Below, piece by piece: positions 1,280 through 42,976 of a stretch of 55,735 nt of DNA. Positions within the stretch are counted from its first letter, which is position 1; each line of letters opens with the position of its first letter. Source of the DNA: Candidatus Harrisonbacteria bacterium (lineage in GTDB: Bacteria > Patescibacteriota > Minisyncoccia > UBA6257 > 1-14-0-10-40-38); NCBI GenBank assembly GCA_023245035.1, contig JAHFLD010000003.1, forward strand, positions 1-55,735. The letters run 5' to 3'. The translations under genes and the position numbers were made by a program. The notes under the pieces are model-generated. The model was not told where the DNA came from. It made no database searches and saw only the letters and a program-made list of their open reading frames with translations.

Positions 1280-3744
1280 GCGATCAAGCAAAATTCTTTT
1301 ATCTTGAACAGCGGTTGGCGATGAGTTTTTTTGGGCGTTTTTTGGTTCGGCTGGTTTTGCTGGTTTTTTATTCGGTGCTTATCGCGGCAACTTTTATTTT
1401 TTTGCTGTCCGATGTCGCTGAACTTAGGCTTGCCGGCACCATTTTCTTTTTGTTTTTACTGCATCGAATTTTCCACATTGGGCGTCCAGATGCGCTAATT
1501 ACTTCTCGCGCGATTAAATATCCCGGCAATGTGGCTCGTTTCTTCGCGCCAGTTACTTATCGTTTTTTGGAACGCGCCCTGGATCGAGCTTTGACTCATG
1601 GCGGAGATGCTCGTTTGCACCTAATGTCTTTTTTGGTGGAGTTGCCCGCGGCTCACGATATTCTGGAGCGGCTTGAATGCGATGCCCACAGTTTTTCTCT
1701 TACGGTTCGCGAGACGCTTGCTCAAACGGCAACTCCGGTTGACGCTGTTGCCGTTTTGGCCCAACTCAATTCTTTAGCCGAGCTCTCTTTTCAATCTGCT
1801 TTGCGCCAGGGGGCAAGGGCGGTTTTGCCAGTGCATCTTTTTGCGGCTCTGGGCTCACTGGATGTTCAACCATTCGCCTCTCTTTTTCGTAAGTTTAATA
1901 TTGCCGAGGGCGATGTTTTTAGAGCCATGATGTTGCGGCGCGCGCTGGATTTGGTTCCTCGTCGCCCGATTTTGCGGGTAATGCCGAAGCATCGTTTTAT
2001 GAATCGGGCTTGGACGGCGCGGCCGACGCCGACTCTGGATCGTTTTTCCCAGGACTTTACCGATTTGGCGCGAATAGTGCCGGCTTCGCCCCTTTTCGGC
2101 CACGCGGTTGAGTACGAAAACATGCTGGGGATTCTTTCTAGGCCCGGCCGGGAAAATGTGCTTTTGGTCGGGGTGCCGGGAGTTGGAATGGATGATTTGG
2201 TAATGCATCTTGCTTATCTGATTACGCGAGATCAAGTGCCTTCCGGGTTGACTGATAAGCGCGTGGTCGTGCTGGATCTTGGCGCCCTTGCATCTGGCGC
2301 GCAACTTGGTGAGTTGCAGGAGCGCATTAAGACCGCGGTTCATGAAGCGATAGCGGCGGGCAACGTGATTTTATACGTTCCAAATCTTCATGTTGCCGTT
2401 CAGTCTGCCACTGGATACGGGTCTGTGATTGCCGAGACTCTCCTTTCGGCCGTGCGCAGCGATGCCTGTTCGGTTATTGGTTCAACTTATCCTTTGGAAT
2501 ACCGAACTATGGAAAGCGTTGGGATATTTCGCGATACTTTCCAAGTGGTGCGAGTTAAGGAGCTTGAGCAAGGGGAGGCGATGGAATTTTTGGTTTCGCG
2601 CGCCGCTGTTTTGGAGACCGGATCACGCGGAAAATTACGCGTCGGGTTCGTGGCAATTCGAGCCGCGGTTTTTTTGGGGCACGCTTATTTTCGAGAAAAG
2701 CCCTTGCCAGCTAGCGCCGAGGATTTATTAAATCAGGCTTTTGGCGAGGCTTTGCAACGTGGCGAGCGAATGCTCACGCGCGTTCATCTTGAGCGACTGG
2801 CCGAGCGGTTGAGCTCAATCCCAATTCACATTCCCGGATCAAAGGAGGCGGCCGACTTGCTGAACTTTGAAGCGCGAGTGCACGAAAAATTCGTAGATCA
2901 AGAGGAGGCGGTCGTATCTGTCGGGAAGGCGTTGCGCGAGTATCGGGCCGGACTTGCCCGTAAAGGCGTTCCGGTGGCGATATTTCTTTTTGTGGGTCCA
3001 ACCGGCGTTGGCAAGACCGAGCTCGCGAAACTGGTGGCGGAGTTTCAGTTTGGCAATCGGGAAGCGATGATTCGATTTGACATGACCGAGTATCAAGCAA
3101 CGGAAAGCATTAATGTTTTAATCGGTTCGCCGAATGGCGAGCGGCGCGGGACACTGACCGAAGCGGTACGCTTGCGGCCGTATAGCCTGCTTTTGTTGGA
3201 TGAATTTGAAAAAGCCCATCCCGATATTCTTAATCTTTTTTTGCAGGTGTTTGATGACGCGCGATTGACCGACTCAACCGGCGAGACGGTCGATTTTCAG
3301 AATACAATCATTATCGCCACCAGTAATGCTCATTCTGAATTTGTGAGATCTAAACTTGAGGCCGGACTTGCCATGGAAGCATTTACTCCAGAGCTTATAG
3401 CGAAGCTTGCCGATGTTTTTCGTCCCGAGTTACTGAATCGATTTTCCAGAATCGTCGTCTTCAAGGCGTTGTCTCCGGTGGATGTTGGTTTGGTGGCGAA
3501 ACTTAAACTTGATTCTTTGGCGAAGGCATTGCTTAACGAGCAGGGAATAACTCTTAGCTTTGACGAGGTGGTTGTAGAAAAAATAGCGACTATAGGTTTT
3601 GATCCGGCTTTTGGCGCGCGACCGCTTGATCGGGCGATTGCCGATTACATTAAAGATCCGTTGGCTCAAAAAATTTTGGCAGGAGGAGTTGCTCGCGGGG
3701 CGACGATTGTGGTTAAGGTTCACGAGGGAAAGATTGTTTTGTAG
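1276..3744 (+). CDS. Membrane-anchored ClpA/ClpB-like AAA+ ATPase
   Basis: N-terminal TM helices; second AAA+ with GPTGVGKTELAK and LLLLDEFEKAHP, arginine-finger region FRPELLNRF; first AAA+ degenerate. Confidence 0.85.
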   Translation: MSDQAKFFYLEQRLAMSFFGRFLVRLVLLVFYSVLIAATFIFLLSDVAELRLAGTIFFLFLLHRIFHIGRPDALITSRAIKYPGNVARFFAPVTYRFLERALDRALTHGGDARLHLMSFLVELPAAHDILERLECDAHSFSLTVRETLAQTATPVDAVAVLAQLNSLAELSFQSALRQGARAVLPVHLFAALGSLDVQPFASLFRKFNIAEGDVFRAMMLRRALDLVPRRPILRVMPKHRFMNRAWTARPTPTLDRFSQDFTDLARIVPASPLFGHAVEYENMLGILSRPGRENVLLVGVPGVGMDDLVMHLAYLITRDQVPSGLTDKRVVVLDLGALASGAQLGELQERIKTAVHEAIAAGNVILYVPNLHVAVQSATGYGSVIAETLLSAVRSDACSVIGSTYPLEYRTMESVGIFRDTFQVVRVKELEQGEAMEFLVSRAAVLETGSRGKLRVGFVAIRAAVFLGHAYFREKPLPASAEDLLNQAFGEALQRGERMLTRVHLERLAERLSSIPIHIPGSKEAADLLNFEARVHEKFVDQEEAVVSVGKALREYRAGLARKGVPVAIFLFVGPTGVGKTELAKLVAEFQFGNREAMIRFDMTEYQATESINVLIGSPNGERRGTLTEAVRLRPYSLLLLDEFEKAHPDILNLFLQVFDDARLTDSTGETVDFQNTIIIATSNAHSEFVRSKLEAGLAMEAFTPELIAKLADVFRPELLNRFSRIVVFKALSPVDVGLVAKLKLDSLAKALLNEQGITLSFDEVVVEKIATIGFDPAFGARPLDRAIADYIKDPLAQKILAGGVARGATIVVKVHEGKIVL

Positions 3745-26223: not shown

Positions 26224-26241
26224 GTGCCCTCGAGAGGATTT
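26224..26241 (-). repeat. Duplicated tRNA-Leu 3' end (18 bp exact, gtgccctcgagaggattt)
   Basis: Identical to 26415..26432 in the tRNA-Leu 3' end, offset 191 bp. Confidence 0.85.
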
Positions 26242-26349
26242 TCACTACTCGTCCTTCGCTATACCTCGGACTGCGCTTTAAAAACCCTCGGTTTTTAATA
26301 TTTTCCGACACGGAAGGGACGTGGTTACTTCCCTTCCGATCCATCCCTC

Positions 26350-26363
26350 GTTCAAATCCTCTC
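26350..26363 (+). repeat. Inverted 14-bp copy of the tRNA-Leu T-arm
   Basis: gttcaaatcctctc is the exact reverse complement of 26423..26436. Confidence 0.8.
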
Positions 26364-26415
26364 AAAAACAAAGATTACAAAGAAACCGGATGATACCGGA
26401 GATTTTTTTTAATTG

Positions 26416-26497
26416 TGCCCTCGAGAGGATTTGAACCTCTAATCCTTTCGGAACGTGGTCCTAAGCCACGCGCGTATGCCAGTTCCGCCACGAGGGC
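26416..26497 (-). tRNA. tRNA-Leu(TAG)
   Basis: GCCCTCG/CGAGGGC acceptor, CGTGG-CTTAGGA-CCACG anticodon arm, long variable arm, GAGGTTCAAATCCTC T-arm. Confidence 0.93.
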
Positions 26498-26573: not shown

Positions 26574-27476
26574 TCATTTATTTTTTCCGTGGAATGCCTT
26601 GTGGATGTCTTTAAGTCCCTTGTTGGTTACGTGCGTATAGATTTGAGTGGTGCCGATGTTTCTGTGTCCGAGGAGCTCCTGTACGGAGCGCAAGTCGGCG
26701 CCGTTGATTAATAAGTCGGTGGCGAAGAGGTGTCTTAGTTGATGGGGAGTTACGTGCCTTGGGATTCCGCTTACTGTCGCGTAATGGCTAACCAGGCGTT
26801 CAACGGCGCGGGGTGTAATGCGCCCGATAACTTGAGGAATTTTGGATTTTTTGAGACTAATAAACAGGGCTTCTTCCACATCACCACGCAAGGCCTCGTA
26901 GTTTTTTAGAGCGTTGCGGGCGCTATCGGATAGGAAGACCAGGCGAATTTTTCCTCCCTTGCCGCGGACGCTGATCTCACCACGCTTGAAATCGAGATCG
27001 CGGTTGAGGCCGCAGAGTTCCGCGAGGCGGAGGCCGGTAGAAAAGAGCATTTCCAAAATGGCGCGATCGCGGGCGGCGCGCAGAGTGTTGCCGCGCGGGG
27101 CTTTGAGCAGGCGATCCAGATCGTGGTGTTCCATGATTTCAATTTGCCGCTGTTCAACCCTGGGAAGCTCTATCTTGTCCGGCGAAATTGCCGGGTATCC
27201 TTTTTTGATTAGGTATTTCAAAAAATTGCGGATGGCGATGACATAGTAGCTTTGAGTGTTTTTTTTAAGCTCAGCGCCATTTACGCGTTCGCGGGCGAGC
27301 GCGAGCCGAAAACGGCGAATGTTTTCTTCGGTTAGGTCTTTGATGGTGTTGATTTTTGTTTGGGCAATAAAGCGTTGCAGGTAGCGCTCGTAGTTGTCGC
27401 GAGTTTTAACCGAACGGTTTTTTTCGATCTCCAGATATTCGCAATATTCCTTGAGGGCTTTTTCGATCTCGTTCAT
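26574..27476 (-). CDS. Tyrosine recombinase XerC/XerD-like
   Basis: FSTGLRLAELCGL, HVTPHQLRHLFATDLL, LLGHRNIGTTQIYTHV (R-H-R-H-Y set). Confidence 0.92.
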   Translation of the reverse strand: MNEIEKALKEYCEYLEIEKNRSVKTRDNYERYLQRFIAQTKINTIKDLTEENIRRFRLALARERVNGAELKKNTQSYYVIAIRNFLKYLIKKGYPAISPDKIELPRVEQRQIEIMEHHDLDRLLKAPRGNTLRAARDRAILEMLFSTGLRLAELCGLNRDLDFKRGEISVRGKGGKIRLVFLSDSARNALKNYEALRGDVEEALFISLKKSKIPQVIGRITPRAVERLVSHYATVSGIPRHVTPHQLRHLFATDLLINGADLRSVQELLGHRNIGTTQIYTHVTNKGLKDIHKAFHGKNK

Positions 27477-42184: not shown

Positions 42185-42598
42185 ATGGCAAGACTTGCTT
42201 CGTGGCTGGAAGGAGAGGGGATTTGGCGGGCGCTTGGTCATATTTGGACCTGGAGCTATTTGATTTTTATCGTTATAAATTTCGCGATTCAAGATCAGTA
42301 TCGTTTTATTATCGCGCCGTTTAGCGTGCTTTATGTCGGGATTTTGACGCTTTACGTTGGCACCAAGGAGTTTGATCGCTGGTACGAAACACATGAAAGT
42401 CATCGGCATCCCGGAGAGCTTTATGTAATCGCCTGGACGGCGGTGATGATCTCATTGGTTATCGCTAATGTTGTTTTGGGACCGAATTATACGATTCATT
42501 CCGACATTGTGGCGACATATATCGCGGTCTTGTCTATTTTCGCGGTGACTCAAAAAGCCAAGCAGTTGCATCGGTGCAAGCAGGAACTTCTAAAATAG
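42185..42598 (+). CDS. Integral membrane protein
   Basis: Multiple TM helices; ATG at 42185 preferred. Confidence 0.6.
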   Translation: MARLASWLEGEGIWRALGHIWTWSYLIFIVINFAIQDQYRFIIAPFSVLYVGILTLYVGTKEFDRWYETHESHRHPGELYVIAWTAVMISLVIANVVLGPNYTIHSDIVATYIAVLSIFAVTQKAKQLHRCKQELLK

Positions 42599-42675
42599 CT
42601 TTCTTTACCTTTTGGCGGATTTCTAATAGGCTGGTAGCAAAGTTTGAAGAATGCAAACTTGTTGTGGGTGATTAG

Positions 42676-42747
42676 ACGGGCTGTAGTATACCGGTAGTAC
42701 GTACGCTTCGGGTGCGTATAGACTGGGTTCGATTCCCAGCAGCCCGA
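42676..42747 (+). tRNA. tRNA-Pro(CGG)
   Basis: CGGGCTG/CAGCCCG acceptor, TACGC-TTCGGGT-GCGTA anticodon arm, TGGG-TTCGATT-CCCA T-arm. Confidence 0.9.
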
Positions 42748-42796
42748 CAAAAATAAAAATAGCTAGCTTGTCTAGTTGTTTTTATTTTTATGGATT
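42731..42796 (+). repeat. 66-bp direct repeat, copy 1 (tRNA-Pro 3' end plus downstream hairpin)
   Basis: Exact match to 42911..42976, offset 180 bp. Confidence 0.95.
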
Positions 42797-42801
42797 ATTT
42801 G

Positions 42802-42815
42802 GCTGGTAATCGAAC
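42802..42815 (-). repeat. Inverted copy (13/14) of the tRNA-Pro T-arm
   Basis: gctggtaatcgaac vs reverse complement of gttcgattcccagc (42727..42740). Confidence 0.75.
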
Positions 42816-42910
42816 GGGAAAGGGGTCGGGAAAACGGAAGTTTTACCGAGGCGGAAATATTAAAACCGCTGGGTTTTAAAACGGAGCGAGCGATAGCGAG
42901 TGAGTAGTGA

Positions 42911-42976
42911 GATTCCCAGCAGCCCGACAAAAATAAAAATAGCTAGCTTGTCTAGTTGTTTTTATTTTTATGGATT
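42911..42976 (+). repeat. 66-bp direct repeat, copy 2
   Basis: Exact match to 42731..42796. Confidence 0.95.

Follow-up and report, generated by a model that had tools for sequence, protein, structure and literature searches.

The unit described here, found in a window of 55,735 nucleotides that forms the whole stretch of Candidatus Harrisonbacteria DNA we analysed, belongs to what looks like an undescribed family of tiny gene-less mobile units in Patescibacteria. The family has a constant anatomy, an arm adapted to each target, hairpins that covary, empty sites among genus-mates, gene ends that diverged under coding constraint, and cores that have been re-targeted within genomes. In our opinion it is somewhat probable that these are non-autonomous, site-specific integrative elements of about 100-250 bp which bring their own gene end with them. 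Our searches of the open-access literature turned up no description of such units.

The unit of the window lies at an intact tRNA-Pro(CGG) gene on the plus strand (42677..42748), identified by ARAGORN and by cmscan with the Rfam tRNA model RF00005 (57.6 bits); all of the features that follow are on the same strand. The 3' part of the gene, 42731-42748, is the proximal gene-end copy. It is followed by a spacer (42749..42801), made of a terminator-like hairpin with 18-bp arms (42749-42766 and 42772-42789) and a 12-nt linker, and then by a target-complementary arm, GCTGGTAATCGAAC (42802..42815), which is an inverted copy of the T-loop and 3' T-stem of tRNA-Pro matching at 13 of 14 positions. The conserved core comes next (42816..42881; 88.6 bits with our covariance model R1) and consists of GGGAAAGGGGTC, hairpin 1, GNGGCGGAAATA and hairpin 2. 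The GC-rich stretch at 42882..42906 differs between copies and, judging from the alignment, is probably a variable third hairpin region. The right end is the octamer GTGAGATT (42907..42914), which comparison of 76 tRNA units identifies as element-borne, and the distal copy (42915..42976) holds the tRNA 3' end (42915-42928) and then the downstream hairpin, as an exact repeat.

The original prediction had reported an exact direct repeat of 66 nt (42731-42796 and 42911-42976, spacing 180), an intact tRNA-Pro and a 13/14 inverted copy of its T-loop and T-stem, and all three were reproduced; chance origin of such a repeat is ruled out. It had also called the unit gene-less, and indeed no open reading frame fits it: the only long frame touching the stretch (42550-42750, minus strand) crosses tRNA-Pro and stops where the unit begins. 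At the gathering threshold Rfam finds only the tRNA in this stretch, and the unit matches none of its families. The further claim that both ends mirror the T-arm of the host tRNA holds for the left arm; the right end is the element's octamer and not a copy of the T-loop. The repeat appears to start at GATT only because GATT is shared, and the true gene-end copy begins after the octamer.

A second unit is present in the window, on the minus strand at tRNA-Leu(TAG) (26415..26497, ARAGORN). Its arm, GAGAGGATTTGAAC (26350..26363), matches the inverted T-loop and T-stem of tRNA-Leu at 14 of 14 positions, its core is divergent (26276..26349; R1 35.0 bits, E 2e-7), and the distal copy of the tRNA-Leu 3' end is AAATCCTCTCGAGGGCAC (26224..26241). 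Hairpin 1 has an unrelated sequence here, with pairing retained throughout (fully recompensated). When the genome of the window was reassembled from stretches, 11 of its 47 tRNA genes proved to lie within 260 nt of an inverted T-arm that matches at 12 or more of 14 positions and leads straight into a core start, in agreement with the R1 matches; the remaining tRNA genes have none above 11/14. A search with the inserted stretch gave further copies in this genome at tRNA-Met, -Arg, -Gly and -Gln and at one protein-gene 3' end.

The inter-repeat core of about 95 nt (42816-42910) is a member of a dispersed family of structured sequences. The R1 model covers only the 66-nt central part and contains no tRNA sequence. 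Of 246 genomes of the order, 122 have matches (up to 15 in one genome), as do 39 of a phylum-wide sample of 384; the inserted stretch itself finds dozens of copies in 60 relatives. A pattern scan of GTDB gave almost exclusively Parcubacteria-type records (Jorgensen-, Colwell-, Lipton-, Harrison-, Moran- and Berkelbacteria), along with two odd records that are possibly contamination. Viral contigs, phages and plasmid collections gave no match to the units, and a phage or plasmid origin was dropped on that ground.

The two hairpins show covariation. Among 104 distinct copies, 15 of the 17 pairs changed on both sides and 98.7% of cells pair; none of 500 shuffles reaches the observed value, the signal is lost when the partner is slid by one to three columns, and covariation is seen also in a 19-sequence version of the core alignment. 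These counts lean towards the structure, as the alignment was fitted to the R1 model; the second unit of the window, however, demonstrates the pairing directly, because its hairpin 1 is unrelated in sequence and still pairs. As RNA, the unit alone does not fold with unusual stability (z -1.1); as single-stranded DNA, the repeat unit does (z -3.4), the terminator contributing. Some cores (L003, L020, L041) have another dispersed GC-rich hairpin, of the CCTGCCGGCAGG type, inserted into them. An antisense peptide encoded in the core was also considered; since the core is open in every frame, varies in length and has covarying hairpins, we treat it as structure.

Among 108 distinct copies, 79 lie 10-240 bp downstream of a tRNA gene of the same orientation, and 18 isotypes are represented. 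The expectation that the core would be found at other tRNAs and in other genomes is therefore borne out by the covariance-model scan. Most other copies show the same anatomy at the ends of other conserved genes; several of the 108 have no assigned gene. The protein-gene targets, which we named by reading the translated ends, include EF-G, L11, BipA and RNase HI for antisense copies at 5' ends, and L33, Pgk, L11 and S9 for sense copies at 3' ends. Further targets are tmRNA, a tRNA-Leu that is met antisense at its 5' end, and a few tRNAs missed by ARAGORN. The entry position is identical each time in EF-G (three genomes), L11 (three), BipA and RNase HI (two each). The protein-gene targets begin with GCATC, GTCAA, GGCCC or GGCGG. 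In EF-G (L035, L059, L117) and BipA (L057, L091, L214) the place of entry is equivalent, beside the conserved AH-x-D / GKTT motif, and this equivalence suggests that the choice of target tracks sequence conservation.

That the units have moved is seen most directly where filled and empty sites can be compared. The L11 gene is filled in genomes G106 and G108, while in G107, of the same genus, a single gene start lies between the conserved flanks. EF-G is filled in G160 and empty in G159, G161 and G017, and is likewise filled in G153 and empty in G056. In another genus tRNA-Gly and tRNA-Ser genes occur both filled and unfilled among species, with downstream flanks that differ. Hence the empty sites anticipated in relatives do exist in genus-mates at two protein-gene targets, and tRNA genes without the unit are seen in genus-mates as well; together with the recurrence of the core they support the proposal that a gene-less unit was inserted at the tRNA.

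The cores are not tied to particular targets. Mean core similarity is 0.770 between different isotypes in the same genome, 0.724 between genomes at the same isotype, and 0.714 for unrelated pairs. In one genome the cores at tRNA-Met and tRNA-Val (L051 and L073) are 100% identical over 94/94 nt, and G288 carries one core at tRNA-Arg and tRNA-Glu in tandem and again at tRNA-His, each with its own spacer; tandem units are seen in G288 and L031. Re-targeting within genomes is therefore an observation.

Across copies the order of parts is constant: gene end, spacer (often a terminator), complementary arm, core, octamer, second gene end. The spacer ranges from about 10 nt to more than 100 nt and the duplicated gene end from under 20 to more than 60 nt. 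The arm shows a mean complementary run of 12.5 nt with its own tRNA versus 7.9 nt with other isotypes, and none of 2000 permutations was as good. Only 5 of 76 tRNA units have a right octamer identical to the T-loop octamer of the neighbouring, restored tRNA, although the tRNA end that follows this octamer is usually a 14/14 match. Where the two octamers differ (n=71), the arm is nearer the restored proximal T-loop in 69 cases and nearer the right octamer in one. Because of these comparisons we group the arm with the proximal gene end and regard the right octamer as the element's own.

Proximal and distal ends of protein genes differ at 60 synonymous nucleotides versus 11 amino-acid-changing codons (a count that leaves out the L33 row, which is mis-framed), and so both copies were once functional ends at several sites. 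At tRNA genes, identity between the copies ends within 4 nt of the tRNA end in 61 of 74 units. Terminator-like hairpins in the same number of units (n=74) follow the proximal copy in 30 and the distal copy in 15, with 4 in a control stretch. Since identity stops at the tRNA end and terminators follow distal copies, we are dealing with two separate gene ends. At L11, EF-G and BipA, and at one RNase HI site, the reading frame of the distal gene start continues across the core. In the L11 units at the 5' end (L056, L076), the displaced distal starts found in G106 and G108 specify one and the same peptide except for a GTG start, their other differences are synonymous, and their frame continues across the antisense core; such a displaced end may go on being translated, as a leader. 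In L002 and L003 the distal copy has a CCA that is absent proximally. A retro-origin through mature tRNA was considered for these and dropped: we find it more plausible that the distal copy is the end the host had originally, and such an end may encode CCA.

Synonymous divergence, the loss of identity at the tRNA end and the separate terminators are the reasons why we favour an element that carries its own gene end. It would consist of a gene-end copy, a spacer that frequently contains a terminator, an arm whose sequence is the complement of the beginning of this gene-end copy, and a structured core ending in the octamer. Integration would take place at a fixed position inside the target gene, the T-loop in the case of tRNAs; the element's copy would restore the gene and the host's gene end would be pushed downstream. 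Presumably the element passes through a circular or excised form. Cleavage and joining might occur beside the octamer by an enzyme supplied in trans, with the arm and the folded core acting as the recognition structure. Our guess for that step is the single host Xer recombinase, as the only broadly available candidate. Against this model stands the fact that no recombinase is linked to the units, and the units with long identity also fit duplication of host sequence. Plain site-specific recombination, moreover, leaves unaccounted for how a core gains an arm for a new target.

A bolder reading addresses the arm itself, and we offer it tentatively, as a possibility that falls short of being probable. 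The units would form a class of mobile DNA of their own, structured, lacking genes and moved by ordinary host machinery (the lone Xer, or repair or transformation), in which an arm rewritten for each target finds that target by base complementarity. If so, one core could colonise almost any tRNA isotype, and the ends of essential protein genes too, without breaking the genes.

A different way to obtain a new arm would be hairpin capping or template switching. Here the target would break and the core would link the two strands on one side of that break, so that inverted arm, core and gene end arise in a single step. Repair from the sister chromosome would then add a further upstream copy of the host gene end. 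With the host target as the source of the arm as well as of the duplicated end, any gene could be re-targeted. This accounts together for the adapted arm, its variable length and spacers of about 10 to more than 100 nt, and for identical cores with different arms in one genome. It also suits recent-looking copies: in nine or ten units, that of the window among them, the copies are identical far beyond the gene end, and in the EF-G unit of G153 they are identical over the whole gene end. Such units are recent, or come from a close relative, or are the product of host-sequence duplication. However, the excess of synonymous changes in protein genes (60 nucleotides against 11 codons) is not predicted, nor are separate terminators and the sharp loss of identity at the tRNA end, unless horizontal transfer later replaced one of the copies. 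We know of no enzyme that would do this, and consider the explanation unlikely.

Several known systems resemble these units in part. Genomic islands with tyrosine integrases enter tRNA and tmRNA genes, using the T-loop and the tRNA 3' end as the site (Islander, PMC4383910). In both cases the target is split and restored by sequence of the element, and a displaced host fragment marks the far end. Unlike islands, our units measure 100-250 bp, have no integrase or other gene, use one core for 18 isotypes as well as protein genes, and bear an inverted arm adapted to the target. In fungal mitochondria, gene-end mobile ORFs (Allomyces atp6; Glomus atp6, atp9, cox2 and nad3) encode homing endonucleases (PMC3630166). 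These too bring a foreign gene end, create a hybrid gene and displace the native end, with mostly synonymous differences between the copies; our units, in contrast, have no endonuclease ORF, also enter tRNAs, and possess a conserved structured core and an inverted arm. A target-adapted arm is not known from either system. The units thus act like tRNA islands or gene-end mobile ORFs but fail the defining test of each, because they encode neither integrase nor endonuclease.

The fungal case invites the idea that our units spread by homing. A nuclease encoded elsewhere would cut unoccupied genes, and recombination or transformation would copy in the occupied allele, so that a foreign gene end replaces the native one. 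The hallmark described for the mitochondrial ORFs is shared (a foreign end fused, the native end displaced, differences mostly synonymous; PMC3630166), and highly conserved target genes suit allele replacement between species. Still, the units carry no nuclease gene, a restored tRNA site is the same as an uncut site and hence would remain cuttable, and re-targeting is not accounted for. We find this doubtful, even more so than hairpin capping.

Among other short structured DNA, integron cassettes carry attC sites with conserved GTT/AAC boxes, have a gene as cargo and depend on an integron platform. Our units are similar in that a long stem enclosing a structured loop can form between arm and right end, and in forming tandems; they differ in having no platform, no GTT/AAC boxes at protein-gene targets, and a gene end as cargo. 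As to an integron integrase, most carriers have no second tyrosine recombinase, and the only one in the genome of the window passes a cut-off for a family that includes such integrases (see below). Elements of the REP/RAYT and IS200/IS605 types are short, structured, dispersed and gene-less, as are our units, whose ends, however, adapt to the target; most carriers have no RAYT-type transposase, and TnpB is absent. Rickettsia palindromic elements are gene-less, structured, about 100 bp long, multi-copy and tolerated in essential genes, but they lack the placement at gene ends, the spare gene end and the arm complementary to the target. Unlike MITEs, the units have no fixed terminal inverted repeats (the arms change with the target) and no fixed length of duplication.

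Very improbable, in our opinion, is that the units are not mobile at all, being instead a vertically inherited conserved RNA or terminator of tRNA transcripts with a role in regulation or processing. The covarying hairpins, and the position mostly on the same strand just downstream of tRNA genes, are what such an RNA would show; antisense copies at the 5' ends of protein genes and tandem arrays are not, and the idea is contradicted by the empty sites in genus-mates and by cores that group by genome and not by isotype. A one-off tandem duplication at tRNA-Pro, for which the 100% identity of the window copies over 66 nt might be quoted, is refuted, since this core recurs in hundreds of copies at different genes and in different genomes, and we give it practically no weight.

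Which enzyme would serve the favoured own-gene-end element was approached through the protein content of the genomes. Carriers and non-carriers alike have mostly one tyrosine recombinase, Xer. The sole one in the genome of the window (window 26622-27134, minus strand) has its best matches in Xer families (XerC/XerD/XerA-like) and passes the NCBIfam cut-off of NF040815 (tyrosine recombinase/integron integrase). Its gene lies just upstream of the tRNA-Leu that bears the second unit. TnpB (PF07282) is absent from all 30 genomes searched (0/30), and a TnpB-like guide RNA was rejected accordingly. The Y1 (RAYT) transposase PF01797 was found in 6 of 18 copy-rich genomes and is absent from that of the window, and reverse transcriptase PF00078 (E<=0.001) is missing from 9 of 18, which also sets the units apart from retroelements such as retrons and group II introns. 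A dedicated tyrosine integrase, a Y1 transposase and a reverse transcriptase were all rejected for inconsistent presence in copy-rich genomes. A motif search limited to the genome of the window found no serine recombinase there. The same genome has a lone retron-type reverse transcriptase (G000:C3:82200-83151; L287 around 2600-3550), preceded by a GC-rich structured stretch near two tRNA genes, possibly a retron.

Two cores without a nearby tRNA (in G119 and G242) were examined as possible autonomous parents, and this was rejected, as they turned out to have large upstream inserts instead. In G119 an 11.7-kb island (L276 5382-17190) with a large serine recombinase and a primase-like protein lies between tRNA-Glu and the unit. 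In G242 a 3.3-kb insert between tRNA and unit (L275 16060-19387) encodes a GIY-YIG domain protein and a second one that by eye we take to be NYN-type. In both, a degenerate remnant of a tRNA end is apparently present (by eye) just before the terminator of the unit, and because of this remnant the inserts look like separate elements nested in the same tRNA. Our leading guess for the enzyme is the host Xer acting on the folded arm and core, with host repair or transformation next.

Patescibacteria have very small genomes, and mobile elements are thought to be few in them. The tRNA 3' ends and gene starts of these genomes are often mosaic, and should be read with caution. The question now posed is how a DNA without genes changes its target specificity so that the arm always fits the gene that was entered. 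Should targeting be guided by the arm, the units would add one more to the nucleic-acid-guided insertion systems; if it is not, they would represent an unusual, repair-based way of spreading. If a mobile gene-less family of less than 250 bp is indeed present in about half of the genomes of the order and spread over the phylum, then much hidden change at the ends of tRNA and core genes would go back to it.
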